Below are positions 1,651 to 25,543 of a stretch of 40,929 bases of DNA, one piece after another. The DNA is from a virus: the IMG/VR virus record IMGVR_UViG_3300037070_007389, positions 1 to 40,929 of that record. One strand, given 5' to 3'. How positions within the stretch are numbered: position 1 is the first letter of the stretch; each line of letters begins with the position of its first letter. Below the pieces are notes generated by a model. That model saw only the letters and a program-made list of their open reading frames with translations, searched no databases and was not told the DNA's origin. The position numbers were made by a program, and so were the translations under genes.

Positions 1651-3771
1651 CTACTGCTCAGCGGCCGCGATTGCCTCGGGCGGGAGCTGGCTGTTGTCCA
1701 TGCCCATGCCTTCGAGCGGAGCGGGGGCGCCAGGCGGGACGGCGGCGTCCATCGACGTCGGCTCCTGCGCGTTCATCGGGAGGCTGGCCTGCGGGCCGGC
1801 GTCCACGAGGGACCCGTCGGGCAGGGCCTCGGCGGGGATGGTCGGGGTGCCGGACAGGGCCGGCGCGGTGGCGAGCACCGGTGAGACCTGCGCGCGGGCC
1901 TGCGCCTTGCCGGCCTTCTCGGCAGCCATCGTGAGGTGCTGCTGGACGTGCTCCAGGAACATCGCCTTGATTTCCTCGGGAGCGTCGTCCCACTCCATGT
2001 TCTTCATCTCGGACTCGTGGGCCCGGATGTGAACCTCGTCGTTGTCGAACGGCGCGACCAGCGCCGGCCGGCCCTGGCTCATCTTGAAGTTCTCGTTGCG
2101 CGCGCGGTTCAGGTCGGGGTTGACGGCCGCGATCAGGTCCTTCTGGCCCGGCAGCTCGGCCATCATGGCCGCGGTCTCGATGTCCTGCACGAGCCCCATC
2201 TGCACGAACTTCTCGGCCACGGCCATCTGCGCCGCGCGGCTGCGCGGCATGATCGCGTCGAGGGGGATCGACACGTCGGTCTGGCCGGCGAAGCTGTCGC
2301 CCGACCAGGCGACGGTCTTCGGGCCGTACTTGTCGGCCTTCACCGTCGTGGTGCGCTGGTGCTCGGTGTTGTCCTCGTAGAGCTTGAGGACCATGCTCGC
2401 GACCTTCGACCAGAGGTTGGCCGAGTCCTTGACCATGCGGCCCACGGGGCTGTTGTCCTGCTCGGCGAGGATCGAGAGCCCGTAGCCCGACTCGATGTTG
2501 ACGGGGGCGGTGCCGCGGCTCACGTCGTGGATGCCGAGCTGGTCGTCAATCTCCATCCGCAGCTCCTCCAGGAGCCGGATCAGGGCGTCGGCGATGGGCG
2601 CCGGCTGGAGCCACTCGGGCCGCTCGATCCCCGTGGGCACGGGGATGATTTCGCCGGGGAGGTCGGTGAGCGCGTCGATCAGGTCGAGGCTCGCGGCGTC
2701 GATCATCAGGCGCGCGTTGCCGGCGTTCTTGAGGTGCTCCAGGTAGTTCGACCACGCGCTGTTGAGCGCGACCTGGGAGTACCGGGCCTGGCTCAGGATC
2801 GTGGTGCCGAGCGCGCTGGTCTCGCTCGGGGTCTCGCGGTGCAGCACGAGGTTGAGGCGGTCGGTCCAGGGGAAGGGCCACGCCTTGGGGCCGTCCACGA
2901 ACTTGTTGTCGACCACGATGGCGACCCGCCCCTCCTTGTTCGCGGGGTTCGGGCGCTCGTAGTACGTGAGCACGAGCGTGAGGTCGGGCCGCTCCTCGTT
3001 GCCCTCGGCGCTGTGGGAGGCGAGGAGCTTCGAGGCGAACGGGGTGAGCCCGGCCGAGGCGTCGGCGGGCGGGAGCTTGTCGAGGCTGAACATGCCCTTG
3101 ACGTCCTCGGGCGGGAGGGCCACGGCCTTGATCCAGTAGGTGCCGGTCTCGCCGTCCTTCACGCCCGGCTGGAGCGCAATCTCGGCGATCGAGAGCACGG
3201 TCTCCACGCTGTCGCCCTCGTAGACCACGGCGGCGCGCTGGTTCGGGTCGTCGGCGGTGAGCCCGCCGTCGAACAGCGGGGCGCCGGCGTTCTTGTCCCA
3301 ATCGACGCAGATACCGGCGGTGCCGGCCTTCCATGCGGCGCGGCCGACGATTTCGCGCTTGACCTCCCAATCGTGGGACTTCCGCACGCCCTCGATGACG
3401 GCCTCGGCGATCTTGGCGCCGGTCATGGCGGCGTCGGTGCCGGCGTCGGGGAGCACCTCGAACCCAAGTTCGCGCTGGGTGTATTTGCTGATGATCGAGC
3501 GGGTGCTGTGGGCGAGCCGGTTCATGGTGGCCTGCACCCGGTCCTCGTCGCGAGGAAGCTCGGCGATCGAGCGCGAGTGGGTGTCCCACCAGAGCCACTG
3601 GTGGCCTTCGAGGAAGGCGCTGTTCATCCAGTATTCCTGGTTCGCCTTTCGCTGGTAGCGGAGGGCCTGGTCGTACAGGGCTCGGACCTTGGCGGCGTCG
3701 AACGGACGATCCGGGTTGGCATCATGCGCGGTCTGCTCGTCTTGCGGGCCCTGCCGCTGGTCTGTCGCCAC
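1651..3771 (-). CDS. Portal protein (P22-type, long form)
   Basis: Dodecameric head vertex through which DNA is packaged and ejected. The 706-residue length is close to the P22 portal and longer than most siphovirus portals. The N-terminal part (YQRKANQEYWMNSAFLEGHQW, then MNRLAHSTRSIISKYTQRELGFEVLPDAGTD spread over residues 40-110) matches P22-like portals; the C-terminus is Ala/Pro/Gly-rich (about residues 630-706). GTG at 3771 sits 6 bases after TAGCCT on the minus strand and lacks a good ribosome-binding site, so I read it as a leaderless start. The scaffold gene follows. Confidence 0.87.
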   Translation of the reverse strand: MATDQRQGPQDEQTAHDANPDRPFDAAKVRALYDQALRYQRKANQEYWMNSAFLEGHQWLWWDTHSRSIAELPRDEDRVQATMNRLAHSTRSIISKYTQRELGFEVLPDAGTDAAMTGAKIAEAVIEGVRKSHDWEVKREIVGRAAWKAGTAGICVDWDKNAGAPLFDGGLTADDPNQRAAVVYEGDSVETVLSIAEIALQPGVKDGETGTYWIKAVALPPEDVKGMFSLDKLPPADASAGLTPFASKLLASHSAEGNEERPDLTLVLTYYERPNPANKEGRVAIVVDNKFVDGPKAWPFPWTDRLNLVLHRETPSETSALGTTILSQARYSQVALNSAWSNYLEHLKNAGNARLMIDAASLDLIDALTDLPGEIIPVPTGIERPEWLQPAPIADALIRLLEELRMEIDDQLGIHDVSRGTAPVNIESGYGLSILAEQDNSPVGRMVKDSANLWSKVASMVLKLYEDNTEHQRTTTVKADKYGPKTVAWSGDSFAGQTDVSIPLDAIMPRSRAAQMAVAEKFVQMGLVQDIETAAMMAELPGQKDLIAAVNPDLNRARNENFKMSQGRPALVAPFDNDEVHIRAHESEMKNMEWDDAPEEIKAMFLEHVQQHLTMAAEKAGKAQARAQVSPVLATAPALSGTPTIPAEALPDGSLVDAGPQASLPMNAQEPTSMDAAVPPGAPAPLEGMGMDNSQLPPEAIAAAEQ

Positions 3772-7608: not shown

Positions 7609-7614
7609 AGGCTA
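7609..7614 (-). promoter_or_regulatory. TAGCCT -10 element, leaderless start of fibre 1
   Basis: TAGCCT on the minus strand ends 6 bases before GTG 7602. It overlaps the terminase stop codon (TAG). The hexamer and spacing are identical to those before the portal and the amidase. Confidence 0.5.
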
Positions 7615-9396
7615 CATGCGGCCGAGGATGGGATGACGGCCGCGCCCTTTGCCCTGCTTGCGCAGGCGCTTCTGGAGGTCGCGCTGGACCTTGGCCTTCA
7701 TCGACGTGTCGTGGTCCTGCTCGGGGGCCTGGCGCATGGCGAGGGTGAGCCACGCCTGCACGGCGTAGGCCAGCGTGTCCACGATGTCGTCGTGGACGCC
7801 GGGCGTAGGGAACGCCTCCATCTCGGCCTCCATGTGGCGCGCCCACTCGGCCTTGCTCGGGGCCGGCCACCAGACCCGGTGGTTCTTGATGGCCTGGCCG
7901 GCGGGGATCGCGCGCGTCAGCTTGTCGATGTCGGCCTTCATCGGGCGCGGGATGAACTTGGCCTTGCGGTTCACCTGCTGAATCAGCATCGTGCCGAAGG
8001 TCTTGTCCTCGATGCAGACGAACATGGGCTTGGCCCGCTGGCCGAGCCACTCGTAGAGGCGCGGCTCGTGGTCGGGGCCTTCGAGCCGAAATCGGAACAC
8101 GTCGACCACCACGAGGCGCCCGTCGGGACACTGGCCCAATTCCATGAACACGGTCCAGTCGGCGCGGGTCTTGGTGGAAATCGCGAGGTCGGTCGAGGCG
8201 AAATGCCGCATGTCCTCGTAGTAGCACTCGTAGCCGTCGGCAAATGTGAAACGGTTGTTCCGTCGGGTGAAGTAGTCGTAGGGCGGGGAGAAGATGCCCG
8301 AGCCCTCGACCGTCGGATATCCCTGATACATTGCCTCGAACCAGAAGGCGCCGCCCGAGCCGGGGTCGTCGGGGTCGCCGGCCTCGCGGGTCCGCTCCAG
8401 CACGGCCTTCGAGTGGAGCATGGGCGCGAGCGCCATCCCCTTCTCGCGGCCGAGCGGGTCGACCTTGTGGCCCTCGGGCAAGTCGTCGGGGTCGATGCCC
8501 TCGCTGATCGCGGGCAGGTTGAGGAAGAACCACTCGTCGGCCTCGGTGCGCGCGACGAACCCCGCGAGGTCGGCCTTCGACCAGCGGGTCATCATCACCA
8601 CGCGCACGCCCGCCTCGGCGTCCTTGCCCGGCCATTTGCGGGGGGACTGATTACGGGTCTTCGCGGTCGAGGTCCACCAGTCCTGCGTGCCCTTGGTCTT
8701 GGTCTCGGAGAGCGCCTCCTCGGCGTTCTTGATGGGGTCGTCCACCACCGTGAGGTGGAGCGAGCGGCCGGTCAGGGGACCGCCGACGCCGGCGGCGAGG
8801 AGCCCGCCGCCGAACACGGTCAGCCACTCGCCCTTCGACCGCGTGCTGGCGTCCAGCTCGACGCCGTACTCGTTGTGGTCCTCGATCAGCTTCTTCACCT
8901 TGTAGGCCCACGAGGTGGCGAAGTCGTGCTCGTAGCTGATGATCGCGGCGTGGCGGGTCGGGTAGCGGAGCAGGTACCAGGCGAGGAGGTGCTGGCTCAC
9001 CATGAAGCTCTTGCCGTGCTGGGGCGGGCACGAGAGGCCGAGGTTGTAGACCGGCTGCTCGCCGGTCTCGGGGTGCTCGAAGTGGCCGGCGCCGATGTCC
9101 TCGTCGTCCCACACCCACACCGCGGGCACGTCGATGCCTAGAGGCGTCGCGTCGTCCCTCCGCGCCGCCTCGCTGGTCTCGTGGTAGAGGCTGTGCTCGA
9201 CCAGCGCGACGAGGTACTTGTCGATCAGGACCGTGTGCGGGAAGGGCTGCGTGTTGGGGGTGACGCGCAGCGCGAGCGCGAGGGGGCTGTCGAGGGAGAG
9301 GTGAAGTTCGAGCAGGTGCTCCAGCTCCTTCGCCTCCTCGGGGGTGGCGATGGTGAGCAGGCGCTCGATTTCGGCGACGCTGGGCAGGGTAGGCAC
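7612..9396 (-). CDS. terL: Terminase large subunit
   Basis: ATP-driven DNA packaging motor and headful nuclease, docked on the portal. The 594-residue length is normal. Walker A-like CPPQHGKS lies near residues 121-128 and a Walker B-type hydrophobic strand ending in VVDD near 217. The RNase H-like nuclease has acidic residues in STDLAIS (about 402), VVDVFRF (about 430) and HDDIVDTLA (about 532). GTG at 9396 lies 9 bases after TAGCCT. Upstream is a structured, gene-free stretch instead of an adjacent small-terminase gene; the 15578-16090 protein is the best candidate for that partner. Confidence 0.94.
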   Translation of the reverse strand: MPTLPSVAEIERLLTIATPEEAKELEHLLELHLSLDSPLALALRVTPNTQPFPHTVLIDKYLVALVEHSLYHETSEAARRDDATPLGIDVPAVWVWDDEDIGAGHFEHPETGEQPVYNLGLSCPPQHGKSFMVSQHLLAWYLLRYPTRHAAIISYEHDFATSWAYKVKKLIEDHNEYGVELDASTRSKGEWLTVFGGGLLAAGVGGPLTGRSLHLTVVDDPIKNAEEALSETKTKGTQDWWTSTAKTRNQSPRKWPGKDAEAGVRVVMMTRWSKADLAGFVARTEADEWFFLNLPAISEGIDPDDLPEGHKVDPLGREKGMALAPMLHSKAVLERTREAGDPDDPGSGGAFWFEAMYQGYPTVEGSGIFSPPYDYFTRRNNRFTFADGYECYYEDMRHFASTDLAISTKTRADWTVFMELGQCPDGRLVVVDVFRFRLEGPDHEPRLYEWLGQRAKPMFVCIEDKTFGTMLIQQVNRKAKFIPRPMKADIDKLTRAIPAGQAIKNHRVWWPAPSKAEWARHMEAEMEAFPTPGVHDDIVDTLAYAVQAWLTLAMRQAPEQDHDTSMKAKVQRDLQKRLRKQGKGRGRHPILGRM

Positions 9397-9405
9397 GGCA
9401 CTCGC

Positions 9406-9411
9406 AGGCTA
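9406..9411 (-). promoter_or_regulatory. TAGCCT element upstream of terminase
   Basis: TAGCCT on the minus strand, 9 bases before the terminase GTG, right after the T-rich end of a large stem-loop. The gap is slightly longer than at other sites, so transcription would give either a leader of a few bases or an alternative start. Confidence 0.4.
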
Positions 9412-9420
9412 CAACGAGAA

Positions 9421-9489
9421 AGCCCCCAACCGCTGTCCCCTATTCGCGACTCCCGGAGGAGAGGCTTTCGACGGACTTGGTTGGGGGCT
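9421..9489 (-). terminator. Large stem-loop upstream of terminase (terminator-like)
   Basis: A perfect 11-bp stem, AGCCCCCAACC (9421-9431) with GGTTGGGGGCT (9479-9489), encloses 47 bases containing a second short hairpin and a GTCC/GGAC pair. On the minus strand the outer stem is followed by TTCTCGTTGT, a weak T-rich tail. It may end transcription from upstream before the terminase promoter, or be part of a structured RNA. Confidence 0.5.
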
Positions 9490-9658
9490 AGGACTCGGCT
9501 CGCCAACACCGCGGGCTCTCGATGCTCGGGGAGAAACTCCCGTTGCCCCCGGCAATTTCAGACTGCCGGGTCCTAAAGCTCAGGATGTGGGTCGCGTTGT
9601 CGGGTACCTGTCCGGTGCGAGCACCATGAGATTCCCGAGGCTGGTCAGCGTAGCAGGG
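9490..9658. other. Gene-free stretch with further hairpins
   Basis: No convincing reading frame on either strand between the large stem-loop and the 36-aa gene. It holds a 7-bp hairpin CCCGGCA/TGCCGGG (9548-9570, 9-base loop) and a GGGAG/CTCCC-type stem at about 9526-9539. With 9421-9489 this makes about 240 bases of structured non-coding sequence in an otherwise tightly packed genome. I found no tRNA signature. Confidence 0.5.
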
Positions 9659-9769
9659 CTAGAGGCTGATGGCGCCGAACAGCGCCAGGAGGACGATCAC
9701 CACGAGGATGATGACCACGATTTCGAGGGCGGTGAGACCCGCCTGGGCGTTCTTGCCGTGGAACTTCAT
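9659..9769 (-). CDS. 36-aa membrane peptide with prepilin-like N-terminus
   Basis: ATG at 9769, 6 bases after TACACT, opens a 36-residue frame: a short basic/polar start (MKFHGKNAQAG), then LTALE and about 20 hydrophobic residues. The order G-L-T-A-L-E followed by a hydrophobic helix matches the class III (type IV prepilin) processing pattern G|[FLM]T..E. It could equally be a one-helix lysis or virion membrane peptide. There is no other homology I can recognise. Confidence 0.55.
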   Translation of the reverse strand: MKFHGKNAQAGLTALEIVVIILVVIVLLALFGAISL

Positions 9770-9775
9770 GGCTGG

Positions 9776-9781
9776 AGTGTA
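9776..9781 (-). promoter_or_regulatory. TACACT -10 element, leaderless start of 36-aa gene
   Basis: TACACT (minus strand) ends 6 bases before ATG 9769. The same hexamer occurs before the genes starting at 10259, 10597 and 12179. Confidence 0.5.
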
Positions 9782-9786
9782 CCCGG

Positions 9787-10068
9787 CTACGCGTTCACGT
9801 AGTCGGCGCTGTCCACGAAGGTGTAGACGGCCGCGCCGTCGGTCACGGTGGCGAGCAGCAGGTACGTGCCGTCGTCCTCCGCAGCCGCGCTCGGGGTGTC
9901 GACCGGCACGACCGGCGCCTCGGTGCCATCACCAACCGCGATGCCTGCGGCGCTGATGCTGACACGGGCGAATGCCTCGTCGCCGACGAAGATGGCGATG
10001 CCGTCCTCGGTGTCGTCGGCACCGACGGTGAGCCGGTACTGGTTCGGAGCGAACTGGTCGAGCGCCAT
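9787..10068 (-). CDS. Small beta-rich virion-type protein (93 aa)
   Basis: Starts with ATG at 10068 (MALDQFAPNQYRLTVGADD), 2 bases after the preceding stop, so translation is probably coupled. The sequence is beta-rich and acidic with a C-terminus (TYLLLATVTDGAAVYTFVD) resembling that of the upstream 62-aa protein (TYVLSLTVTG...AVYTWVN), suggesting duplication. Likely a small decoration or fibre-associated protein; function not known. Confidence 0.68.
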   Translation of the reverse strand: MALDQFAPNQYRLTVGADDTEDGIAIFVGDEAFARVSISAAGIAVGDGTEAPVVPVDTPSAAAEDDGTYLLLATVTDGAAVYTFVDSADYVNA

Positions 10069-12191: not shown

Positions 12192-12300
12192 CGCGGGTTA
12201 CAGCTCGAAATTTCGTAGCACCGGTGGACGCCAACTTAGGGCGCGCGGGCCCGCCACGAAGGGGGTGTGCCCCCCGCCCCGCCCCCCGCCTCGAAAGTTG
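12192..12300. other. Gene-free divergent region with G/C tract
   Basis: Contains GGGCCC (near 12248) and a C-rich run at about 12270-12290. On the minus strand this run is three long G-tracts separated by single C residues, a possible G-quadruplex or block to polymerase. No reading frame is supported. Confidence 0.4.
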
Positions 12301-12373
12301 TCCCCAATTGTGAACAACCATTGATTCAATGACATCGAACTGTAACCGTTTCATATGACGTGCTGTAACACGT
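12301..12373. promoter_or_regulatory. A/T-rich palindromic control region (possible origin)
   Basis: The most A/T-rich stretch seen in the window. It holds a 13-base palindrome CATTGATTCAATG (12319-12331) and a spaced dyad ACGTG-N6-CACGT (12358-12373). It lies between the leftward late block and the rightward island, so it could be an operator/promoter region or a DNA-unwinding element. Which of these is not decidable from sequence. Confidence 0.45.
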
Positions 12374-12380
12374 GACCAGC

Positions 12381-12446
12381 GAGGGAGGGAGGCGAGGCGA
12401 GCGCATACCTATGCATCACGTTGCATAGCTCCCGCCTCCCTCCCTC
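12381..12446. repeat. Inverted repeat 1 of the island's left end
   Basis: GAGGGAGGGAGGCG (12381-12394) pairs perfectly with CGCCTCCCTCCCTC (12433-12446), 14 bp with 38 bases between. No T-tract follows, so a terminator is unlikely; recognition or structural use is possible. Confidence 0.7.
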
Positions 12447-12485
12447 CCGTCGCACGTGCGAGGCGGTCGCCTCCCGTCCCGATAT

Positions 12486-12588
12486 GCGAGCTGCGGTAGC
12501 GAGCACGAGGGAGGCGGGAGGCGAGGCGGGAGCGCGATACCGCTGCGGGAGGGAGGGAGGCGAGGCGGTCGCGCCTACCGCAGCTCGC
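12486..12588. repeat. Inverted repeat 2 of the island's left end
   Basis: GCGAGCTGCGGTAG (12486-12499) and CTACCGCAGCTCGC (12575-12588) form a 14-bp perfect stem flanking purine-rich GGGAGGC repeats. With inverted repeat 1 it fills the roughly 380-base gene-free start of the island. Confidence 0.7.
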
Positions 12589-12683
12589 GACCACCTAGGG
12601 GATTTCGGCAGCGAGTGTCGCGAAATCCGCCGAACTACAGCGCTGTATTTCCGCTGGTCACAGCGTTATTTGAGATTTCCCTC

Positions 12684-12689
12684 TTGACA
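12684..12689 (+). promoter_or_regulatory. Consensus -35 box (TTGACA) before first island gene
   Basis: TTGACA, 65 bases before ATG 12755, preceded by GAGATTTCCCTC, a partial copy of the island's 15-base palindrome. No good -10 hexamer is visible 16-18 bases downstream, so the promoter is tentative. Confidence 0.35.
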
Positions 12690-12754
12690 GAATTTCGGTC
12701 CGATGAGCACGTGTCACCCGACAGGAAACCGACGCACGAGGAACGAGAGCGAAC

Positions 12755-13285
12755 ATGGATGCGACCCACGAGACCAGCGAACGAGGAACGAGCGAGCTAC
12801 TCACTCGCACGCTCTGGACAGCACGCAGCACGGGAACGAACGAGGCGGGAGTCTGGGTGATCGGTCCCGTGCTGGTCGAAATCGTGACCACGCAGCTCAC
12901 CCGTCCCGACGGGACGGAATGCACGCCTAGCTATTACGTGAGCATCGACGGTAGGCACGCTTTCGGCGGTTTCGCCTCGCACCTATCCGCCGACGGTCTC
13001 CCTCCCGTCGGCTCGCTGCGGGATTTCTCGCCTCGCACGTGCGAGCACGAGAACGAGAGCGAGCGAGGCGAGCGAGGCGAGCGCACGTGCGAGAGCTGCG
13101 GGATCGTTCTAGAGAGCTTCCTCGTTCCGCCGGCGGTATGGGTCCCGTCTACGGGTGAGGTATTCCTCGCTCGTGAGCTTCCTCACTACGTGCGAGAGCT
13201 GCGGGAGTCGCACACCTACAGCGAGAGCTACTCAAGCGTTCCGATGGCGGTAGCGGTCGCGACGGAATGGTACGCAGACAACTAG
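12755..13285 (+). CDS. Island gene 1: unknown protein (176 aa)
   Basis: ATG at 12755 (MDATHETSERGTSELL), 176 residues. The part from about residue 28 to 85 reads like an ordinary folded domain (GVWVIGPVLVEIVTTQL, SYYVSIDGRHAFGGFASH). A low-complexity ENESERGERGER stretch, written in the island's repeated words, separates CEH from CESCG (about residues 95-120); these Cys/His residues could bind zinc. The C-terminus is ordinary again (PSTGEVFLARELPHYVREL). I do not recognise the family; the coding-like ends suggest a real gene. Confidence 0.6.
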   Translation: MDATHETSERGTSELLTRTLWTARSTGTNEAGVWVIGPVLVEIVTTQLTRPDGTECTPSYYVSIDGRHAFGGFASHLSADGLPPVGSLRDFSPRTCEHENESERGERGERTCESCGIVLESFLVPPAVWVPSTGEVFLARELPHYVRELRESHTYSESYSSVPMAVAVATEWYADN

Positions 13286-13364
13286 GCGACCGCCGGCGGG
13301 AGGCGAGCGCACGTGCTCGCCTCCCTCGCTCGCTTTCCTCCCTGCCCACGGGAGGCGAGCGAGC

Positions 13365-13379
13365 GAGGGAAATTCCCTC
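13365..13379. repeat. 15-base palindrome, copy A
   Basis: GAGGGAAATTCCCTC, a palindrome around a central A, ending 25 bases before ATG 13405. An identical copy precedes the gene at 13838, suggesting an operator or activator site. Confidence 0.65.
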
Positions 13380-13404
13380 GCACGAGAGCACGGGAGCGAG
13401 AGCT

Positions 13405-13548
13405 ATGCGATTTGACACTCTGCGGGATGCGCAGCGAGGCGACCGCCTACGGGAGCACGAGGCGAGCGCACGAGCTGCGTGGCAACGTAGGCAGGATTTC
13501 GCTCGCTGGTCGATGATTGAGGCGAGCACGAGGGAGGCGGGAAAGTGA
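13405..13548 (+). CDS. Island gene 2: small charged protein (47 aa)
   Basis: ATG at 13405 (MRFDTLRDAQRGDRLREH...), ending STREAGK, with purine-rich sequence (GGGAGCGAGAGCT) just upstream. The product is rich in Arg, Glu and Ala and probably helical. Its TGA overlaps the GTG of the next frame (GTGA), an operon-like arrangement, but the island's repeated words give long open frames easily. Function unknown. Confidence 0.42.
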   Translation: MRFDTLRDAQRGDRLREHEASARAAWQRRQDFARWSMIEASTREAGK

Positions 13549-13727
13549 CCAGCACGAGCGAGAGCGAGCGCACGCAGCTCGCTCGCACGTACCTAACCGA
13601 CCGTAGGCGAGGCTACGTAGCCTCCCGCAGAGCTAGCGACGGGAGGCGAGCGAGCGCACGTAGCGAGAGCATCGACCGTCGATGGTCGCTAGGGAGGCGA
13701 GCGGGAGACCAGCGAGGCGAGAGCTAG
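13545..13727 (+). CDS. Island gene 3: Arg/Ser-rich small frame (60 aa)
   Basis: GTG at 13545 overlaps the previous stop by 4 bases. The 60-residue product is strongly Arg/Ser-rich (MTSTSESERTQLARTYL..., RRASDGRRASARSES). It is largely the translation of the CGAGC/GGCGA word mix, so it may be a by-product of sequence bias; the coupling to gene 2 is its only support. Confidence 0.33.
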   Translation: MTSTSESERTQLARTYLTDRRRGYVASRRASDGRRASARSESIDRRWSLGRRAGDQRGES

Positions 13728-13731
13728 CGAC

Positions 13732-13762
13732 GGGAGGCGACCAGCACGAGCGGTCGCCTCCC
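13732..13762. repeat. Stem-loop with 9-base loop AGCACGAGC (copy 1)
   Basis: GGGAGGCGACC (13732-13742), loop AGCACGAGC, then GGTCGCCTCCC (13752-13762): an 11-bp perfect stem just after the stop of island gene 3. The same loop and inner stem recur at 15542-15572. No T-tract follows here. Confidence 0.7.
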
Positions 13763-13800
13763 TCGCTCGTGAGCTGCGCACGAGAGCGCAGAGCACGAGC

Positions 13801-13815
13801 GAGGGAAATTCCCTC
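13801..13815. repeat. 15-base palindrome, copy B
   Basis: GAGGGAAATTCCCTC, identical to 13365-13379, ending 22 bases before ATG 13838. The two copies sit at nearly the same distance from a start codon. Confidence 0.65.
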
Positions 13816-13837
13816 ACACCTACGAAAGAGGCGAGCA

Positions 13838-14365
13838 ATGCCTACGAATCCGATTTCCGACCGTCCCGCCCACAAGGGATATCCGGGCGAAATCTGCCGA
13901 CCGTCCGCAGCGTTCCGTTTCTCGCACGAGCTAGGCGGATTCGTTCCCGCCGGCGGGAGCACGAGCGAGACCAGCGAGACCAGCGAGCACGAGACCAGCA
14001 CGAGCGAGGCGGGATGGGTGATCGTTTCGATCGGTCGCAATATCGAGAGCACGAGCGGTCGCGACCTTCCGCTTTCGGAATGGGAGGAATTCAAGCGGGA
14101 TACGGTCGACTTGTTCGCCTCGCTTGATTTCCGGGTGGATGGCGGGATTTCGACCAGCGAGGAACACGGGAGCGAGGAAACCTTTACCGCCGGCGGTACG
14201 TGCTCGCTCACGAGGCGGGAGCTTGAGCGCACGCTCGCCATTCTCGCTCGCTGGTATTTCCAGGATGCGATTTCCCTCACCTACGGTGGAGGCGAGCGCA
14301 TAGAGGCGACCGCCGGCGGTATCTACGCTCGCTCGCTTGAGAACGTGCTCGCTAGTGCCTACTGA
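13838..14365 (+). CDS. Island gene 4: unknown phage protein (175 aa)
   Basis: ATG at 13838 has the best ribosome-binding site in the island (GAAAGAGG, 6 bases upstream). Two ordinary-looking blocks (PTNPISDRPAHKGYPGEICRP and, from about residue 62, WVIVSIGRNIES...LSEWEEFKRDTVDLFASLDF) flank an insert STSETSETSEHETSTSE made of tandem ACCAGCGAG/ACCAGCACGAG units. The second block and the SxxExxxER-type C-terminal part (RRELERTLAILARWYFQDAI) look like a genuine small actinophage protein. Function unknown. Confidence 0.62.
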   Translation: MPTNPISDRPAHKGYPGEICRPSAAFRFSHELGGFVPAGGSTSETSETSEHETSTSEAGWVIVSIGRNIESTSGRDLPLSEWEEFKRDTVDLFASLDFRVDGGISTSEEHGSEETFTAGGTCSLTRRELERTLAILARWYFQDAISLTYGGGERIEATAGGIYARSLENVLASAY

Positions 14366-15161
14366 CCAGCGAGCACGAGAGCTGCGCTCGCTTCCTCCCG
14401 CCGGCGGTTTCCTCCCGCCGGCGGTAGGTAGCGGGAGGCGAGCTAGGCAAACCGCCATACGTGCGAGCATCGCACGAGAGCTGCGCACGTATCCCGTGAG
14501 CGTGCTGCGTGAGAACGTGCGCACGTGCTACCGCCTCGCTCACGAGAGCGAGCGCACGAGCGGGATGGGTTGGTATCCCGTAGCGCACGAGCTAGCGAGC
14601 GAGCTAGGCGAGGGAGTGAGTACGGGAGCTGCGGTAATCGCTGCGCTCTCGCCTCAAATCGGATGGCTAGCGAACATTTCCGCAGCTCGCTCGCTGGTCG
14701 CCTCCCGCTCGCACGAGGAAGCGCAGAGCATAGGTGCGCTAGGTGACGGGATTTCTAAAGCTCTCGCCATTCTTGAGGGTTCGCCTCCCTCGCTCGTGCT
14801 AGGCGGTCGAAAGGTGCGCTCGTTCTATCGAAACATCCTCTATCCCTCACGAGCGGGAGCGGTAACGGTCGACCGCCATGCTGTAGCCATAGCTCTCCAC
14901 GGGATAGGCGGTCGCTCGCCATCCGATAAATGGCTAGAGCGAGCGGGAACCTATGCGCTGGTCGCCTCTATCTACCGCAGCGAGGCGAGGCGAGCGGGAA
15001 TCCTCCCGCAGCAATTGCAAGCGATTTGTTGGTTAGCGCATAGGCGGGAGCTTGACGGTAAAGCGAGCGGGAACCTACGTGCTGCGCACATAGCGCAGCG
15101 AGCTAACACTCCCGCTCCCGCTCCCGCTGCGCACCTATCCGACGGAACGGAGGATTTCTAG
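14337..15161 (+). CDS. Island gene 5: HhH/DNA-glycosylase-like phage protein (DUF7178-type)
   Basis: The frame opens at TTG 14337; GTG at 14496 (221 aa) is a likelier start because the first 50 residues are Arg/Pro-rich word translation. The core carries GMGWYPVAHELA, AAVIAALSPQIGWLANISAARSL and a later AVTVDRHAVAIA. I associate this spacing (AALSP..xW..N, then VDRHA) with a widespread actinophage family of probable helix-hairpin-helix, DNA-glycosylase-like fold. It is the best evidence that the island encodes conserved protein despite its odd DNA. The role is unknown; DNA binding or base processing is inference. A strong terminator follows. Confidence 0.66.
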   Translation: MRTCSLVPTDQRARELRSLPPAGGFLPPAVGSGRRARQTAIRASIARELRTYPVSVLRENVRTCYRLAHESERTSGMGWYPVAHELASELGEGVSTGAAVIAALSPQIGWLANISAARSLVASRSHEEAQSIGALGDGISKALAILEGSPPSLVLGGRKVRSFYRNILYPSRAGAVTVDRHAVAIALHGIGGRSPSDKWLERAGTYALVASIYRSEARRAGILPQQLQAICWLAHRRELDGKASGNLRAAHIAQRANTPAPAPAAHLSDGTEDF

Positions 15162-15203
15162 CGACCAGCGAGAGCGCACGAGCTGCGCACGAGAGCGAGC
15201 ACG

Positions 15204-15231
15204 AGAGGCGACCGCCTAGGCGGTCGCCTCT
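15204..15231 (+). terminator. Terminator closing the island operon
   Basis: A perfect 28-base palindrome centred on CCTAGG (15215-15220), with 5'-arm AGAGGCGACCGCCT, followed by TTTCGTTTCC. It begins 43 bases after the stop of island gene 5 and is the strongest terminator in the island. The inner GAGGCGACC/GGTCGCCTC is shared with the stem-loops at 13732 and 15542. Confidence 0.8.
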
Positions 15232-15541
15232 TTCGTTTCCCGCTCAAGCTCGCGCACATTTCCGCCGGCGGTCGCGACGGGAGCGAGGCGAGAAATCGAC
15301 CGCTGCGCTCGCCTCCCATCCTCCCGCACCTACCTACCGCCTCCCTCCCTCGCACGAGCTTAGGCGTCGATTTAGCACGCTCTCACGAGGCGACCGCTCA
15401 CGAGCGGGAGCACGAGCGGTCGAATTCCACTAGTGTGATTTCGTGACCAGCGAGCGAGGCGACCAGCACGAGCTAGCGCACGAGCTGCGCAGCTCCCGCC
15501 GGCGGTATCGACCAGCGAGCACGAGGCGAGCGCACGAGCGC
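15232..15541. other. Gene-free part of the island
   Basis: No supported gene. It includes two CCGCCGGCGG copies (15262, 15496), an inverted repeat CGACCGCTC/GAGCGGTCG (15391-15399, 15414-15422) and a TAGTGT-N6-GTG element (15431-15445). That GTG opens a frame made of the repeated words, which runs into the convergent gene and is probably not real. Confidence 0.5.
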
Positions 15542-15572
15542 ACGAGGCGACCAGCACGAGCGGTCGCCTCGT
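15542..15572 (-). terminator. Stem-loop with loop AGCACGAGC (copy 2), between convergent ends
   Basis: ACGAGGCGACC (15542-15552), loop AGCACGAGC, GGTCGCCTCGT (15562-15572): 11-bp perfect stem, followed on the plus strand by TTGCGTT. It lies 5 bases beyond the stop of the minus-strand gene 15578-16090, a natural terminator position for that gene, though the T-rich side faces the plus strand. Confidence 0.55.
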
Positions 15573-15577
15573 TTGCG

Positions 15578-16090
15578 TTATGCGCTCTCGTGCTCGCTCC
15601 CGTCGCCTCCTGCTATCGCACGCTCCCGCTCCCGCAATCGGTCGAGAATCCCGTGGAGCGCGCCGGCGACCCCCGCCTCGCCGCCCACGACGACGGCGCC
15701 AATGTTCACGGTGGTCGACCCTGCGGGGCCCTCACCGCCGGACGCACCGCCACTAGCGGCGCGACCGTCGCCGATTTCCGCACGCACCGCCCACGGCTCG
15801 CCCTCTAGGGCAGCAGCCCGACGCACCGCCCTGATCGGGTCGAGGCCCTCCTCGACCGCATACCGGACGGTGTTCTTCCATTGCTGGCCGATCGCAGCCG
15901 AGTAGCGATCATGCGTGCTAGGCGAGATGTCGGCCCGCCGTAGCGCGGTGAGGTGCGGCGTCCCCTGCCGGCGCTCCTCCAGGTAGATCGCGCGGCGCTT
16001 CTCGTTGAACTTCCCGCCGGGGCTGATCGCGCTCGCCTTCGCCTGTTCCCAGGTGCGCTCGACGGGCACGATCGAGTTGGTGGAATCCAT
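15578..16090 (-). CDS. Putative DNA-binding protein, possible small terminase
   Basis: 170 residues from ATG 16090, 7 bases after TACTAT. Residues about 35-100 are helical and look like a helix-turn-helix region (LTALRRADISPSTHDRYSAA, VRYAVEEGLDPIRAVRRA), as in small terminase subunits that bind the packaging site. The middle is Gly/Ala-rich and the C-terminus (RERERAIAGGDGSEHESA) is written in the vocabulary of the adjoining island. The gene is the only minus-strand one right of the late block, which would suit a terminase partner or a regulator. Neither role is proved. Confidence 0.6.
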   Translation of the reverse strand: MDSTNSIVPVERTWEQAKASAISPGGKFNEKRRAIYLEERRQGTPHLTALRRADISPSTHDRYSAAIGQQWKNTVRYAVEEGLDPIRAVRRAAALEGEPWAVRAEIGDGRAASGGASGGEGPAGSTTVNIGAVVVGGEAGVAGALHGILDRLRERERAIAGGDGSEHESA

Positions 16091-16274: not shown

Positions 16275-17687
16275 GTGACCACCGATACCGCCGGCCCCGA
16301 CTACACCGCCATCGCCCAGGAGGCCCTCGATACGGGCTCCTTCGCACTCGGCCACGACGACGAGCTGTGGGTCTACGACCCCAGCGTCGAGCGGTGGCGC
16401 CTCGACGCCTCGCCCCCGTCCCTCCTCGACCTCGTGGTCAATACGGCGTTCGGCCGGAACGCTCGGGTCAAGCATCGCCGCGAGGTGCGCCCGCTGCTCC
16501 TCCACGACCCGCGCCTCCCTCGGATGGGGCGCCCGAACCCCCGCCTGATCCCCTTCGATGACGGGACCTACGACCCGCTCGCCGCCACCTTCACCCCGCA
16601 CCGCCCCGCCGACTGGACGACCGCCAAGCTCCCGTGGGACTTCCCGGCCGACCCCGACCATCAGCACCGGCACCCCCGCTTCGACGCCTTCCTCGCCGAG
16701 GTCTTCAAGGGCTACGAGGCCCAAATCCCCGCCGTCTGGCAGATCATCGGCTACGCCATGCTCCCCTCCAACCCGCTCCAGAAAGCGGTATGGATGTACG
16801 GCCCGACCGGCCGTAACGGCAAGGGCACCCTCCTCGAATTGATCCGTCGCATCGTGGGCCGCGGCAACACCTCGAACGTGTCCCTGCGCGAAATGAACAC
16901 CTCGGTCAATCAATTCAAGCTCGCCGAGCTGCACAACAAGATCATCAATATCGACTTCGACGCCTCGGGCGCTTTCATCAGCGACACCACCGGGTTCCTC
17001 CAGGTCACCGCCGGTGAGCCCGTGCTCGTGGAGCGCAAGCGCGCGCACCCGTTCCCCCTCAACCCTCCCGGCCTGTTCCTCGCCGCCTCCAACACCATCC
17101 CCAGCGTGCGCGATGCCGGCCCTGGCTATTTCGAGCGGTGGTACACCCTCTATTTCCCCAATACCTTCGCCGGCCACACCGACCCGCACCTCGTGGACAA
17201 GCTCAGCACCGAAATCCCGGCCATCATCGAAACGGCCCTCGACGCCCTGGTGTGGGTGCTCGGGACCGGCGGTTTCGTCCAGACCCGCACCTCGATCGCG
17301 GTGCGCGACGTCTTCGCCACCCGCTCCGACAACGTGCGCGCCTGGCTGGATGACCGGTGCGTCGTCAACCCGTCGGCGACCACCGGTATCCGGCGCCTGT
17401 ATTTCGACTACGAGATGTGGTGCCGGGCCAACAACAACAACCACAAGCTGGAGCGCCTCGCCTTCAAGGACCGCCTCGAATCGGCCACGGTGCTCGGGCT
17501 CCGCTACCACAAGGTCAACGGGAACGAGGGCTACACCCTCGACGTCCTGCCCCCCGAGGCCGAGGCGCCGCACCCCGCCCTCGACGCACTCCGCAACCTC
17601 GACGGGCCCCCGACGCCGCCCTCCCTCACCGAGCTGCGCGCCGCCGTCCCCGCCCTTCCCAAGCTGACCGAAGGAGGTGAAATATGA
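16275..17687 (+). CDS. SF3 helicase, phage/plasmid primase P4-family C-terminal type
   Basis: Replicative ATP-dependent helicase. The 470-residue protein carries Walker A GPTGRNGKGT (about residues 175-184), a Walker B-like hydrophobic strand IINIDFD (about 222) and the SF3 motif C region PGLFLAASNTIPSV (about 263), all typical of D5/P4-type proteins. The N-terminal 170 residues contain no recognisable catalytic primase motifs, so this looks like the helicase half; a separate DnaG-type primase is encoded at 32767. First gene of the rightward block; GTG in leaderless position. Confidence 0.88.
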   Translation: MTTDTAGPDYTAIAQEALDTGSFALGHDDELWVYDPSVERWRLDASPPSLLDLVVNTAFGRNARVKHRREVRPLLLHDPRLPRMGRPNPRLIPFDDGTYDPLAATFTPHRPADWTTAKLPWDFPADPDHQHRHPRFDAFLAEVFKGYEAQIPAVWQIIGYAMLPSNPLQKAVWMYGPTGRNGKGTLLELIRRIVGRGNTSNVSLREMNTSVNQFKLAELHNKIINIDFDASGAFISDTTGFLQVTAGEPVLVERKRAHPFPLNPPGLFLAASNTIPSVRDAGPGYFERWYTLYFPNTFAGHTDPHLVDKLSTEIPAIIETALDALVWVLGTGGFVQTRTSIAVRDVFATRSDNVRAWLDDRCVVNPSATTGIRRLYFDYEMWCRANNNNHKLERLAFKDRLESATVLGLRYHKVNGNEGYTLDVLPPEAEAPHPALDALRNLDGPPTPPSLTELRAAVPALPKLTEGGEI

Positions 17688-22436: not shown

Positions 22437-22913
22437 GTGCCAACCCCGCAGTCCGTCCGCCTGGTCTCACCGCCCGACGACGACGAGAAGCCCGAGCCCG
22501 CCGCCCGTGCGGTGCTCGCCCTCGTGTCCATCGTGCAGGACTCCATCCTGTTCAACAGCGCCGACGTCTTCCCCGCCCTCGTGACCCACGAGGACGGCAC
22601 CGAGAGCATCGCGCTGACGGTCGCCGTCGACCACCCCGACCACCCCGGCCAGACCGGCTACGGGGTCCTCGGCATCCTGTTCTCCAACGAGGTCAGCTCG
22701 CCGGCCGAGGCGGCGTACGCCATCGAGGTCTCGAAGCTCGTGGTCGCCGCCATCGACGTCGAGAACGCCGAATTCGCGGCCCGCAACGAGGACGAGAACC
22801 TCGCCAACGCCGTCGAGGCCGCGCTCGCCGAGGACCCCGAGGACGCCGCCCTCGCCGTCGAGGAGGCCGTCAACCGCGCCACCGACGAGCGCTACGCCGC
22901 CGAGAGCGACTGA
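22437..22913 (+). CDS. Acidic alpha-helical protein, unknown (158 aa)
   Basis: GTG at 22437 with GAAAGAGG 7 bases upstream. The N-terminal half contains ALVSIVQDSILFNSADVFPALV; the C-terminal half is highly acidic and Ala/Glu-rich (ALAEDPEDAALAVEEAV), probably helical. It could be a DNA mimic or chaperone-type protein; there is no motif to decide. Confidence 0.68.
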   Translation: MPTPQSVRLVSPPDDDEKPEPAARAVLALVSIVQDSILFNSADVFPALVTHEDGTESIALTVAVDHPDHPGQTGYGVLGILFSNEVSSPAEAAYAIEVSKLVVAAIDVENAEFAARNEDENLANAVEAALAEDPEDAALAVEEAVNRATDERYAAESD

Positions 22914-23173
22914 TGCGCGCCGGCAAGTACCCGTGGCCGGAGGGCGAGCCCTTCGTGCCGCCCGCCGGCGGGCAGGTTGCCTCGCCCGTCACCAAGCCGA
23001 ACGCACCGCCCCTGGGGCCCAACCACTCGCTCGTGCGGGTGCGCCGGCACCACCAGGCCATCGTGCTCGACGTGTCCGAGTGCTCCGTCCACCTCTCACC
23101 CTCGGAGGCGCTGCGCCTCATCGCCGACCTCGAAGCGCTCTGCGTTCCGATGGGCTGGCTGGAGCCCCGATGA
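22913..23173 (+). CDS. Small protein (86 aa), unknown
   Basis: ATG at 22913 overlaps the previous TGA by 1 base. Pro-rich N-terminus (GKYPWPEGEPFVPPAGG), then HSLVRVRRHHQAIVLDV and SEALRLIADLEALCV, an ordinary alpha/beta pattern. The following gene overlaps its stop (ATGA). Confidence 0.66.
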   Translation: MRAGKYPWPEGEPFVPPAGGQVASPVTKPNAPPLGPNHSLVRVRRHHQAIVLDVSECSVHLSPSEALRLIADLEALCVPMGWLEPR

Positions 23174-23649
23174 ACCCCGAGCTGCCCGAGCTGCCCGAGG
23201 ACGTCGTGGACGAGCTGATCGCGCTCGACCCCACCGAATTCCTCAACCGGCCCACGACGGACGAGGGCGCGCTCTCGTGCGAGTCCCTCGAAATCGTGCG
23301 GAGCTGGCTGGCCTACATCATGGCGCAGGACGGGCGCGGGCCCGTGCGCCTGCTCCCGCTCAACGACCCCGACATCGACCAGGCCGTCGAGTCCCTCGCC
23401 GCCGACTACCGGAAGCAGGGGCTCGACCTCTGGAGCGAGCGCGACCTCCTCTCGGCCTACTGGACGCACCAGGCGTGCGTCATCAGCCTCCTCGGCGACC
23501 TCGCCGAGTGTGGCGGGACGCCGGGCGACGTGCTCCACACCTACATCCACATCCTTCGACCGATGGCGAACCTCGCCCTCACGTTCGAGCTGCTGCTCCT
23601 CGCCGTCCTCGGCGAGGCCGCGGCCTTCTTCCCCGAGGAGGTGAACTAA
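23170..23649 (+). CDS. Helical acidic protein, unknown (159 aa)
   Basis: ATG at 23170 in an ATGA overlap. Helical throughout: PELPELPEDVVDELIALDP, CESLEIVRSWLAYIMAQ, RDLLSAYWTHQACVISLLGDLA and a hydrophobic end LALTFELLLLAVLGEAAAFF that could be amphipathic or membrane-active. No recognised family. Confidence 0.67.
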   Translation: MNPELPELPEDVVDELIALDPTEFLNRPTTDEGALSCESLEIVRSWLAYIMAQDGRGPVRLLPLNDPDIDQAVESLAADYRKQGLDLWSERDLLSAYWTHQACVISLLGDLAECGGTPGDVLHTYIHILRPMANLALTFELLLLAVLGEAAAFFPEEVN

Positions 23650-23813
23650 TGGCCGATTCCAAGACCGCCAGCGCCGCCGACGTGCGCGCCTGGGCCCGTG
23701 AGAACGGCGTCGAGGTCGGCACCCGCGGGCAATTCTCCCGCGAGGTGATCGCCTCCTTCAACGCCGGCAAGCGGGGCAACGCCCGCTACGTGAAGCCGTC
23801 CGAGCGCAAGTAG
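23649..23813 (+). CDS. Lsr2 C-terminal-domain-like DNA-binding protein
   Basis: 54 residues; ATG 23649 overlaps the previous TAA, with GAGGTGA upstream. DVRAWARENGVEVGTRGQFSREVIASF matches the Lsr2 DNA-binding domain (xRxWAxxNGxxVxxRGxI). The N-terminal dimerisation domain of bacterial Lsr2 is missing, so it may compete with host Lsr2 at A/T-rich DNA or silence phage genes. Confidence 0.83.
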   Translation: MADSKTASAADVRAWARENGVEVGTRGQFSREVIASFNAGKRGNARYVKPSERK

Positions 23814-23995
23814 CTCGGCCCCTACCGCTGCGCCCGCCAGCGATAACAACGGGCACCACGCCGGCCACGGCAGGCGCACCGGCCGACGTCGACCGAAGGA
23901 GGGCTGATCCCCTTCCTGGGCCGGCTGGTGCGAGGGAGGTTCGAGCCCTCCCTCCGGCTCTCATGCTCACCTTCCACCAACCCAAGGAGAACACC
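23814..23995. other. Gene-free stretch with a hairpin
   Basis: About 180 bases with no supported gene. An 8-bp stem GAGGGAGG/CCTCCCTC with a 7-base TTCGAGC loop (23933-23955) resembles a tRNA T-arm, but no matching acceptor or anticodon stem is present. GGCCACGGCAGGC near 23866 is a degenerate copy of the small-gene ribosome-binding cassette. Confidence 0.45.
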
Positions 23996-25015
23996 GTGGG
24001 CCACATCGCCCTCACCCTGTACGTCGCCGGGCCCATGCGCGGGTACCGGCGCTTCAACTTCGACGCCTTCGAGGAGGCGTCGACCCGCCTCCGCTCGCAC
24101 GGCTACACCATCGTGTCGCCGGCCGAGATGGACCTGGCCCTCGGGTTCGACCCCGACGGCTCCCTGGAGGAGCAGGGCTTCGACGTCCACGAGGCGTTGA
24201 CGCGCGACTTCGACGCCATCGCCAAGGCGGACGGCATCGCCCTCCTGCCCGGCTGGGAGGAGTCCGACGGCGCGATGGCCGAGCGGTTCGTGGCCGAGAA
24301 GCTCGGCAAGCGGGTCTACTTCTACCGGGGCGCCAACAGCGGCGCCTACCCCCTCGTCCACGCCACCGACGAGCCCCTCGTGCTGCTGCGCGAGGAGCCC
24401 ACGCCCCGCCAGGAGGCCATGCTCCGGCACCCCTCCTCGCAGAGCGGCCCGCCGATCCCCTTCGATGACCGCTACGAGGCCACGATCCTCGGCTACACCA
24501 ACATCACGCCCGAAGGGATCGCCCGCACCGGCTCGCACGCCGACCAGCACGACCGGTTCATGGCGCGCTACCACGAGGAGCTGCGCAAGGAGGCCGAGAA
24601 GCTCGTGCTCGATGACCCACCGCGGGTTACCACGCCCGAGCCGGCGGCGGCGGAAGCCGACACCACCAACCCGAAGGATTTGCTCGGGGTCAAGAAACCG
24701 CAGCTCTGGCTCGTGCCCCGCTCGTTCATCATCCGCACCGCGCAGGCGATGGCCGACGGGGCCCGGAAGTACGGGCCCTACAACTGGCGCGAGAAGGCCG
24801 TGCGCGCCACCGTCTACCAGTCCGCCGCCGACCGGCACCTGTCCGCCTGGCTCGACGGCGAGGACCACGCGACCGACTCGGGGTACCACCACCTCGCCCA
24901 CGCCGGCGCCTGCATCGCCATCCTCATCGACGCGATCGAGACCGGCAACCTCGTGGACGACCGGCCCACGCCGGGCGCCGCAGGGCGACTCATCGCCGAG
25001 CTGACGGAGCAGTAG
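23996..25015 (+). CDS. DUF4406 - dGTP/dATP diphosphohydrolase (DUF5664) fusion
   Basis: GTG at 23996 has AAGGAG 6 bases upstream, better than the in-frame ATG at 23963. The N-terminal half (LYVAGPMRGYRRFNFDAF at about 8-25, then SPAEMDLALG) is a DUF4406/nucleoside deoxyribosyltransferase-like fold. The C-terminal part (from about 223: NPKDLLGVKKPQLWLVP, ARKYGPYNWR, HLSAWLDGEDHATDSGYHHL) is the DUF5664 family, MazG-like dNTP diphosphohydrolases. The fusion suggests nucleotide-pool control or preparation of a non-standard nucleotide. No PurZ-like partner is seen. Confidence 0.8.
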   Translation: MGHIALTLYVAGPMRGYRRFNFDAFEEASTRLRSHGYTIVSPAEMDLALGFDPDGSLEEQGFDVHEALTRDFDAIAKADGIALLPGWEESDGAMAERFVAEKLGKRVYFYRGANSGAYPLVHATDEPLVLLREEPTPRQEAMLRHPSSQSGPPIPFDDRYEATILGYTNITPEGIARTGSHADQHDRFMARYHEELRKEAEKLVLDDPPRVTTPEPAAAEADTTNPKDLLGVKKPQLWLVPRSFIIRTAQAMADGARKYGPYNWREKAVRATVYQSAADRHLSAWLDGEDHATDSGYHHLAHAGACIAILIDAIETGNLVDDRPTPGAAGRLIAELTEQ

Positions 25016-25018
25016 GGT
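25013..25018 (+). promoter_or_regulatory. TAGGGT -10 element, leaderless start
   Basis: TAGGGT ends 7 bases before GTG 25026; its TAG is the stop of the upstream fusion gene. Confidence 0.4.
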
Positions 25019-25025
25019 GCCTCGT

Positions 25026-25196
25026 GTGAAGTCGCATCTGACCATCATCCAGCACGCCGAGAAGGCGGTCCGCTACGAGCGCACCGCCGCCGCTCTCCAG
25101 GTGCGGGGCATCACCGAGCCCACGCCGCCCGAGACCTTCTGGCAGATGGCCGCGATCCACCGTGCGTGGGTCGCCAAGCTGCGGACCTCGGTGTGA
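25026..25196 (+). CDS. Small helical protein (56 aa)
   Basis: GTG at 25026, 56 residues: HLTIIQHAEKAVRYERTAAAL, then EPTPPETFWQMAAIHRAWVAKLRTSV. It lacks an ATG, but the GTGA overlap with the next gene and its ordinary composition support it. Function unknown. Confidence 0.6.
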   Translation: MKSHLTIIQHAEKAVRYERTAAALQVRGITEPTPPETFWQMAAIHRAWVAKLRTSV

Positions 25197-25543
25197 GGCC
25201 GGCCACGGGCTGGCCCGTCAGCGAGGCGCCGCGCCCCTGCTACCCGGACCGGGTGGAGTGGGACGGGTCCAGCCCGTGGGAGGTCATCGACGTGGACGTG
25301 CTGGGCCGCTGGCTCATCGTGTCCGACGGCGACGAGCACTACGAGGAGCGCTACGTCGACCCCGCCGAGCTGTACCTGCTTGAGGTCTACGACGCGCGCC
25401 CGCTGGTCGGGTGCGAGGACATCACGAGCATGGCCTACGCCTTCCGGCGCGCGATGGAGACCGCCCTCGCCACCTACAAGGACGCGCTCGTGCAGCAATT
25501 GGAACAGCCGAGCGTGCTGATGCGTTACCTACAGCGTGACTGA
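25193..25543 (+). CDS. Unknown protein (116 aa)
   Basis: GTG at 25193 overlaps the previous TGA. Beta-rich N-terminal part (WEVIDVDVLGRWLIVSDGDEHYEERYVD) and helical C-terminal part (MAYAFRRAMETALATYKDALVQQLEQ). It overlaps the polymerase start by 8 bases, so translation may be coupled. No recognised family. Confidence 0.68.
   Translation: MRPATGWPVSEAPRPCYPDRVEWDGSSPWEVIDVDVLGRWLIVSDGDEHYEERYVDPAELYLLEVYDARPLVGCEDITSMAYAFRRAMETALATYKDALVQQLEQPSVLMRYLQRD

Follow-up and report, generated by a model that had tools for sequence, protein, structure and literature searches.

Recurring short DNA words are known from several settings. Cryptic simplicity is the scrambled repetition of short motifs through slippage-like turnover, satellites and other repeat families under concerted evolution are alike within a lineage and different between lineages, and iterated palindromes of the HIP1 type are distributed genome-wide and common to a cyanobacterial host clade. 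Here we analyze a viral record 40,929 bases long (IMG/VR record IMGVR_UViG_3300037070_007389, positions 1 to 40,929; hereafter the window), in which a block of three genes and its non-coding DNA, the dialect island, is written in a phage-specific set of words. At the corresponding locus, a sister phage carries recognizably these genes, spelled with other words. Our leading though tentative reading, to which we give slightly less than an even chance, is that the genes of the island are resident and that it undergoes word-level concerted evolution, filtered by selection on the proteins. In mycobacteriophages, genome ends with self-similar regions that differ between genomes were reported in 2015 and left unexplained (PMC4841201). 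The passages concerned trace the terminal tetranucleotide usage of cluster L1 to repetitive GC-rich k-mers, mention repetitive ends also in F1, H and O, and suspect horizontal transfer for the terminal regions of cluster E (PMC4841201). In view of that report, the statement in a preliminary description of the island that no described phage feature matches it was nearly right.

Results

The preliminary description, made by eye, had outlined a 3.3-kb island of different words, and the counts bear it out. Under a third-order model, the maximum-scoring segment has two sharp edges (Table 1) and no 200-nt block outside it scores positively; the model was trained on the middle of the island, so the edges are partly circular. 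GGCC occurs 453 times in the window and never in the island. The GGCC-free gap, between occurrences at 12248 and 15727, is 3479 nt long, and no other gap in the window exceeds 745 nt. Against 62 overlapping control windows of 3295 nt outside the island, both GGCC (0 versus 27-57) and CTAG (20 versus 0-4) fall outside the control range. The words that had been listed as recurrent all lie above it: CGAGC (79 versus 24-43), GGCGA (48 versus 19-41), CACGAG (42 versus 1-24), GGGAGGC (20 versus 0-3) and CCGCCGGCGG (9 versus 0-2). CCCC/GGGG, described as almost absent, has a single occurrence with both strands counted, and CCGAG and GCCGC are missing entirely, as is GGCC. The proposed codon shift holds for CTA (19.4 per thousand versus 1.2 outside), ATA (9.7 versus 0.4), GTA (12.9 versus 0.6) and GGA (22.7 versus 1.5), and fails for GGG (16.2 versus 15.8). 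As described, island words occur on both strands and in genic and intergenic DNA alike; CACGAG departs from this in being heavily strand-biased (38 versus 4), in coding and non-coding DNA. The island lacks 117 of the possible 5-mers and flank segments of equal length lack 94-122, so that over-used words, not forbidden ones, make its dialect.

The sister phage (L013; IMGVR_UViG_3300037119_006827) is syntenic with the window and has a terminase large subunit (TerL) that is 72% identical. At the homologous place it carries counterparts of all three island genes, which encode the DUF7178 protein (56% identical), P1 (52%) and P2 (31%). Its vocabulary consists of CGGCCG, GCCGGC, CACCAC and CTAG, with CGGCCG found 166 times in its island (10.9 expected) and GGCC 186 times on two strands (72.3 expected). 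CTAG is enriched in both islands (40 versus 2.3 and 40 versus 5.1 expected, two strands), and word z-scores of the two islands are nearly uncorrelated (0.18 for 4-mers, 0.06 for 6-mers). Where window and sister share an amino acid, they share the codon at a fraction of 0.42 in DUF7178 (0.31 expected from usage) and 0.76 in TerL (0.64 expected). Because the sister orthologues at the same place use other words, we take the genes to be resident and the vocabulary to be what changed.

This contrast bears directly on import of a foreign gene block, which had been suggested in the form of a replicon with another word economy. The sharp compositional edges and the wide distribution of DUF7178 among phages would suit an import. 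A horizontally acquired island should, however, be absent from the orthologous position in relatives or match a donor, and the sister has the orthologous block, in the same place and in another vocabulary. Searches gave no source either: the region has no blastn match in 50,697 phage records, and a three-word island pattern matches three contigs of the viral collection, more than once only in a second contig of the same phage. Among the explanations considered, import is the one to which we assign the least probability.

The claim of a bias at the level of DNA rather than protein was upheld by two kinds of test. Genes were shuffled with protein and codon counts preserved and scored with a model trained solely on the non-coding DNA of the respective island. 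All three window genes and all four sister genes exceeded every one of 300 shuffles (z 4.7 to 14.7), and six flank genes under the same shuffles had z -0.0 to 1.6. Repeated 8-mer pairs stand in the same codon phase in 42% of cases in the window, 47% in the sister and 46% in a further phage, L168 (see below), versus 78% in flank genes; the values for 10-mers are 45%, 42%, 50% and 84%. Since a phase-blind process would yield 33%, freedom from codon phase is large and incomplete. The bias thus lies at the DNA level and, given that the sister spells the same genes differently, the block seems to be subject to a force that acts on its DNA apart from its proteins. The preliminary description had also raised a structural or recognition role of the words, which may still apply, but RNA folding in the island (mean z -1.73) is not clearly stronger than in the single flank region used as control (-1.26; 15 simulations per 300-nt piece), and RNA structure is unsupported as an explanation.

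Two spellings of the block exist in one phage. The second contig (IMGVR_UViG_3300037119_006958), from the same metagenome as the sister to judge by their names, carries the island at 99.92% identity over 18,449 nt without gaps; an assembly artefact is unlikely, since this is a separate IMG/VR contig. The aligned parts contain 15 substitutions, all of them within the island and in three clusters (Table 1), and the other ~33 kb aligned outside it show no substitutions and one gap; two additional mismatches beyond 22785, outside the alignment at the end of the second-contig piece, are excluded. By our own estimate, the clusters, taken as three events, would all fall in this 9% of the length by chance about once in a thousand. 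The 12 differences in coding DNA are all synonymous, including an arginine codon altered at two positions. Conformity was scored against the rest of the island, relative to synonymous respellings drawn at random with the codon usage of the island as weights, and both spellings of both coding tracts reach percentiles of 95.9-96.6 (k=3), 99.7-100 (k=4) and 98.8-100 (k=5). The two spellings keep both the protein and the dialect. The pattern of concerted evolution, alike within and different between lineages, is seen in the second contig on the one side and in the sister, and in part in the Shagrat and Jflix2 pair described below, on the other.

Several observations point to copying between word copies, namely longer repeats, tandem arrays, word stretches that the sister lacks and inverted arrays in two other phages. 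Positions in recurring 12-mers make up 0.225 of the island versus 0.124 +/- 0.017 under its own fourth-order model, and the over-use of short words above Markov expectation is that of cryptic simplicity and concerted evolution. All six islands compared have a higher tandem coverage than the remainder of their locus (here 0.111 versus 0.037). Word-rich stretches of P1 and P2 are missing from the sister: residues 80-103 of P1 (24 aa) and the N-terminal part of P2, which carries the word array TSETSEHETSTSE, face gaps in the alignments. In the non-coding DNA on either side of the island in Shagrat and in Jflix2, matches are mostly reverse-complementary (565 inverted versus 89 direct, and 680 versus 73), and the words involved partly differ between the two phages. 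Inverted flanks are weak in L019 (38 versus 16; see below) and not found in the window phage or the sister, which rejects them as a general rule.

Further zones came to light by searching around DUF7178 in other phages, their limits being set by eye. Shagrat and Jflix2, cultured Rhodococcus phages that are sisters and grow on one host strain, each have a dialect zone. Their profiles correlate at 0.68 (4-mers) and 0.33 (6-mers), and they accordingly differ less than the window and its sister. At identical amino acids, they use the same codon at 0.27 in DUF7178 (0.31 expected) and at 0.58-0.59 in two flank genes. L168 and L170 represent one phage with CTCGAG words over ~5 kb, the frequency of CTCGAG climbing from 1 to 26 per kb toward an edge. 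L019 (IMGVR_UViG_3300037150_000044) contains two adjacent dialects; the second zone, at 9030-9820, has CAGCGG words by eye and directly follows a zone nearly free of CAGC (1 versus 25.7 expected from the rest). Timshel and Sheen, phages for laboratory M. smegmatis mc2 155, have weak zones. In shuffle tests, three of three Shagrat genes lay beyond all 200 shuffles and both L019 genes beyond all, and one of four Jflix2 genes did so, the others (z 1.6-1.7) being reached by 8 or 9 of 200. For L168, the phase and shuffle tests covered 11 consecutive genes, with training DNA that included neighbouring genes; ten lay beyond all shuffles, and the remaining one was reached by 1 of 200.

Another candidate explanation was that the phage evades restriction or CRISPR of its host, or follows host codon pressure; escape from a GGCC-directed system had been proposed specifically. 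The missing GGCC and the partly common 4-mer profile of two phages on one host strain would agree with it. Restriction avoidance should nevertheless be genome-wide, and the flanks here retain GGCC and the island of the sister abounds in it; moreover, Shagrat and Jflix2 differ at 6-mers and in their codon choice where amino acids are identical. We consider this explanation very improbable.

Such zones were scored by the excess of recurring 8-mers over a second-order model. This excess is above 0.1 in 0.25% of 1614 control windows from 79 terminase loci. At DUF7178 genes of a first set, it is above 0.1 in five of 24 loci, among them the window phage and its sister, and above 0.06 in ten. A second set comprised 53 of 76 loci, chosen by eye after near-duplicates and short or partial matches were dropped, and shares several isolates with the first; none of the 53 exceeds 0.1 at the gene, 12 are above 0.06, the 99th percentile of the controls, and beyond 3 kb the excess declines. 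DUF7178 as the sole determinant of dialects is thus unsupported, and both sets, found through DUF7178, are silent on the frequency of zones without it. The second-order statistic undercounts strong dialects, as L168 scores 0.095 by it and 0.337 with a plain shuffle, for which control windows have a 99th percentile of 0.093 and a maximum of 0.283. For REQ1, the third phage of the Shagrat cluster, the final 15 kb of the record have no DUF7178 gene named in their annotation, which settles nothing. Two side observations concern other repeats. Record ends (positions 1-1000) of five Mycobacterium/Gordonia phages (L113, L119, L124, L125 and L128) hold word-repeat zones with an excess of 0.137-0.171, largely without annotated genes except in L124. 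Near the DUF7178 gene, L022 (5900-7300) and L023 (8900-10800) contain GACCCCGACTGCGACC-like repeat units that resemble a protein tandem repeat and are of a different kind.

These frequencies also bear on plain low-complexity drift, in which a weakly constrained locus simply gathers slippage repeats and nothing specific is at work. The tandem repeats and microsatellites of the islands and the divergence of P1 and P2 would be expected from it. Drift would, however, leave conserved coding DNA free of dialect, and DUF7178 is a conserved family whose synonymous sites obey the dialect; the rarity of high excess in control windows also speaks against it. We regard drift as a distinctly unlikely account.

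The DUF7178 protein (PF23802) scores 153.5 bits over residues 57-237, against a curated cut-off of 27. The predicted model is all-helical and of modest confidence (pLDDT 67.8). Foldseek with this model returned nothing at E<=0.001 and ranked unrelated helical proteins first. In a second structure comparison, 49 of the 50 matches listed are DNA glycosylases (MutY, EndoIII, OGG1, AGOG and others; Z 3.9-6.6), the best with Z 6.6 over 164 residues, a level that the tool rates as possibly a mere common arrangement. A profile match to 8-oxoguanine glycosylase has an E of 0.18. T177 and D179 are invariant in all five aligned DUF7178 proteins, and D179 fits the catalytic-type aspartate of the HhH-GPD superfamily; the histidine after the aspartate is not retained in L019. 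On these structural matches, the protein is a likely, though putative, DNA glycosylase. A literature search for the name DUF7178 found no papers. In L021 (5307-9056), a 1249-aa protein has the domain in its C-terminal part and, with domains assigned by eye, resembles a modular phage head or toxin protein, an arrangement that suggests an effector role.

DUF7178 is widespread in phages. Of the 17 cultured isolates examined, 15 have it no more than 5.1 kb from a record end, the exceptions being Tunturi_3 and Pumpernickel. The end that bears it may be the first to enter the cell. T5 first-step-transfer DNA is known to survive the destruction of host DNA, and an early DNA-attacking phage enzyme, the putative DUF7178 glycosylase or a partner, might similarly spare the words of a first-entering locus. 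The predicted fold, the terminal position, the three words wholly missing from the window island and the 85 absent 5-mers of the first L019 zone (19-34 in flank segments) are in keeping with such self-exemption. Absent 5-mers are not raised in the window island and are fewer in Jflix2 (54 versus 97-118 in flank segments), so that avoidance is no common signature; these counts do not support a forbidden-word language for the window island, the sister, Shagrat and Jflix2, with L019 as the exception and L168 having been counted without control segments. Self-exemption seems to us a little less probable still than drift.

Table 1. Positions of the dialect island, its genes, the variant clusters and other genes in the window.
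Feature	Position	Strand	Basis
Dialect island, all in phage-specific word set	12361..15655	.	Maximum-scoring segment, word counts
5' non-coding island part; GGGAGG, GAGGCG, CACGTG words	12361..12754	.	Sequence, word matches to other blocks
P1, 176 aa	12755..13285	+	Sister orthologue 52% identical; synonymous shuffle z 6.8-9.5
Non-coding dialect DNA between P1 and P2, contains mechanical ORFs	13286..13837	.	Sequence, word matches
P2, 175 aa, start codon uncertain	13838..14365	+	Probable sister orthologue 31% identical; shuffle z 8.1-8.9
DUF7178 protein (PF23802), putative HhH-GPD-type DNA glycosylase	14337..15161	+	E 8.3e-45; shuffle z 12.3-14.7
3' non-coding island part	15162..15577	.	Sequence, word matches
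Small-terminase-like gene	15578..16090	-	Weak match, E 0.02
Variant cluster 1, 3 differences, non-coding	12611..12640	.	Window versus second contig
Variant cluster 2, 5 differences, all synonymous	14744..14765	+	Window versus second contig
Variant cluster 3, 7 differences, all synonymous	15023..15059	+	Window versus second contig
P22-like portal	1651..3771	-
Terminase large subunit	7612..9396	-
D5-like primase	16275..17687	+

The true start of the DUF7178 gene is uncertain, and its shuffle tests used 14367-15161. The right island edge enters the final codons of the small-terminase-like gene, placing 15578-15655 inside the island. P1 was not found in the genome contigs or phage records searched. 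A weak zinc-ribbon match in P1 (residues 96-125, window 13040-13129; E 0.00078, under the curated cut-off) starts inside the stretch without a counterpart in the sister, whose protein is free of cysteines at this place; growth of the dialect may therefore have created this motif. The window also encodes DNA polymerase A, an SNF2 helicase and a PD-(D/E)XK nuclease. A single protein at 23963-25015 combines DUF4406 with an N-terminal domain of dATP/dGTP diphosphohydrolase and represents a nucleotide-pool gene. Pfam scans of 30 window proteins revealed no DNA methyltransferase, the other window open reading frames (ORFs) and ~8.5 kb beyond the window being unscanned. These ~8.5 kb, at G001 22804-31320 of the second contig, have no match in the window, so the full genome is probably near 49 kb. 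TTAA does not occur anywhere in the window (1-40929).

Discussion

The bias of the island is confined to the block, orthologous loci carry different dialects and further zones surround DUF7178 in other phages. We propose that a set of words of ~4-14 nt would spread through the block within one phage lineage, across coding and non-coding DNA and in all frames. Spread would occur by repeated short-patch copying from one imperfect word copy to another, through slippage, template switching or micro-conversion, with the proteins preserved by selection. Each lineage would drift to its own dialect, and sister phages would therefore come to spell the same genes differently. Copying, rather than selection for binding-site words, would be the driver, and an early or first-entering position of the locus may be what exposes the block to it. 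A more speculative extension, which we hold to be improbable, is that the block rewrites itself: DUF7178, as a mismatch-type glycosylase, would attack mispairs between annealed imperfect word copies and short-patch repair would spread one word, so that a phage gene would drive the dialect of its own neighbourhood, with CTAG as a product of repair bias.

A number of observations weigh against word-level concerted evolution. Word copies are only mildly clustered, with direct 8-mer pairs within 50 nt at 1.3 times expectation (1.7 in the sister), and both edges of the window island are sharp. The Shagrat and Jflix2 dialects are partly alike in their 4-mers, and most DUF7178 loci lack a strong dialect, none of the 53 in the second set exceeding 0.1. 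When the DUF7178 gene is divided into 28 consecutive 9-codon tracts, each of them falls at the 97.3-100th conformity percentile, and such even conformity exceeds what undirected copying with protein selection obviously yields. In the same-phage pair L168/L170, ten of 30 differences fall in the dialect zone, two amino acids being changed among them, and 16 of the 30 form one 0.5-kb cluster outside the zone (G004 3181-3729). That cluster looks like an exchanged short tract, and with such a cluster outside a zone, short-tract exchange between strains can also explain the variant clusters of the window. No donor copy can be named for the respelled tracts.

The main rival is selection for the words themselves. 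A phage factor with a lineage-specific DNA preference, such as an early regulator, a nucleoid-like protein or a replication protein, would bind the words, and the locus, genes included, would be kept dense in sites. This accounts for the very even conformity of the 28 tracts better than copying does, and it fits the sharp edges, the strand bias of CACGAG and the dialect kept in both spellings. Each dialect nonetheless consists of several unrelated words and simple repeats instead of a single motif, and no DNA-binding gene was identified in the island. We judge selection for words unlikely on balance, though clearly more probable than drift, self-exemption, host avoidance or import, and continue to prefer concerted evolution by copying.

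Sister orthologues in nearly unrelated vocabularies, together with two spellings in near-identical genomes, allow a local force on DNA words to be told apart from codon usage and from protein. Its cause is open to direct testing, since a version of the phenomenon is present in cultured sisters that grow on a single host strain. Compositional islands in phages are, by themselves, no evidence of transfer, and DNA-based comparison will miss orthologues that are spelled so differently. As far as our searches of listings and passages reach, neither the contrast between sisters nor the codon-phase and synonymous tests nor the two spellings appear to have been published; among the papers listed on concerted evolution of short motifs, none dealt by its title with comparable phage genomes.

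Among known systems, cryptic simplicity resembles the island in that short motifs exceed their Markov expectation both inside and outside coding DNA, but the island is restricted to one locus, is strong at the synonymous sites of a conserved gene and differs from the dialect of its sister. Concerted evolution of satellites shares the similarity within and the difference between lineages, whereas the units here are short words that run across protein genes in all frames and not copies of one long unit. HIP1 is likewise a dense short palindrome that extends into genes, comparable to CGGCCG in the sister and CTCGAG in L168, but the phage words are local and differ between phages. The mycobacteriophage genome ends, likewise phage regions with a tetranucleotide usage of their own, are the closest precedent (PMC4841201). 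The passages concerned contain no comparison of sister orthologues and no codon-phase or synonymous test, whereas in the present case orthologues carry different vocabularies.

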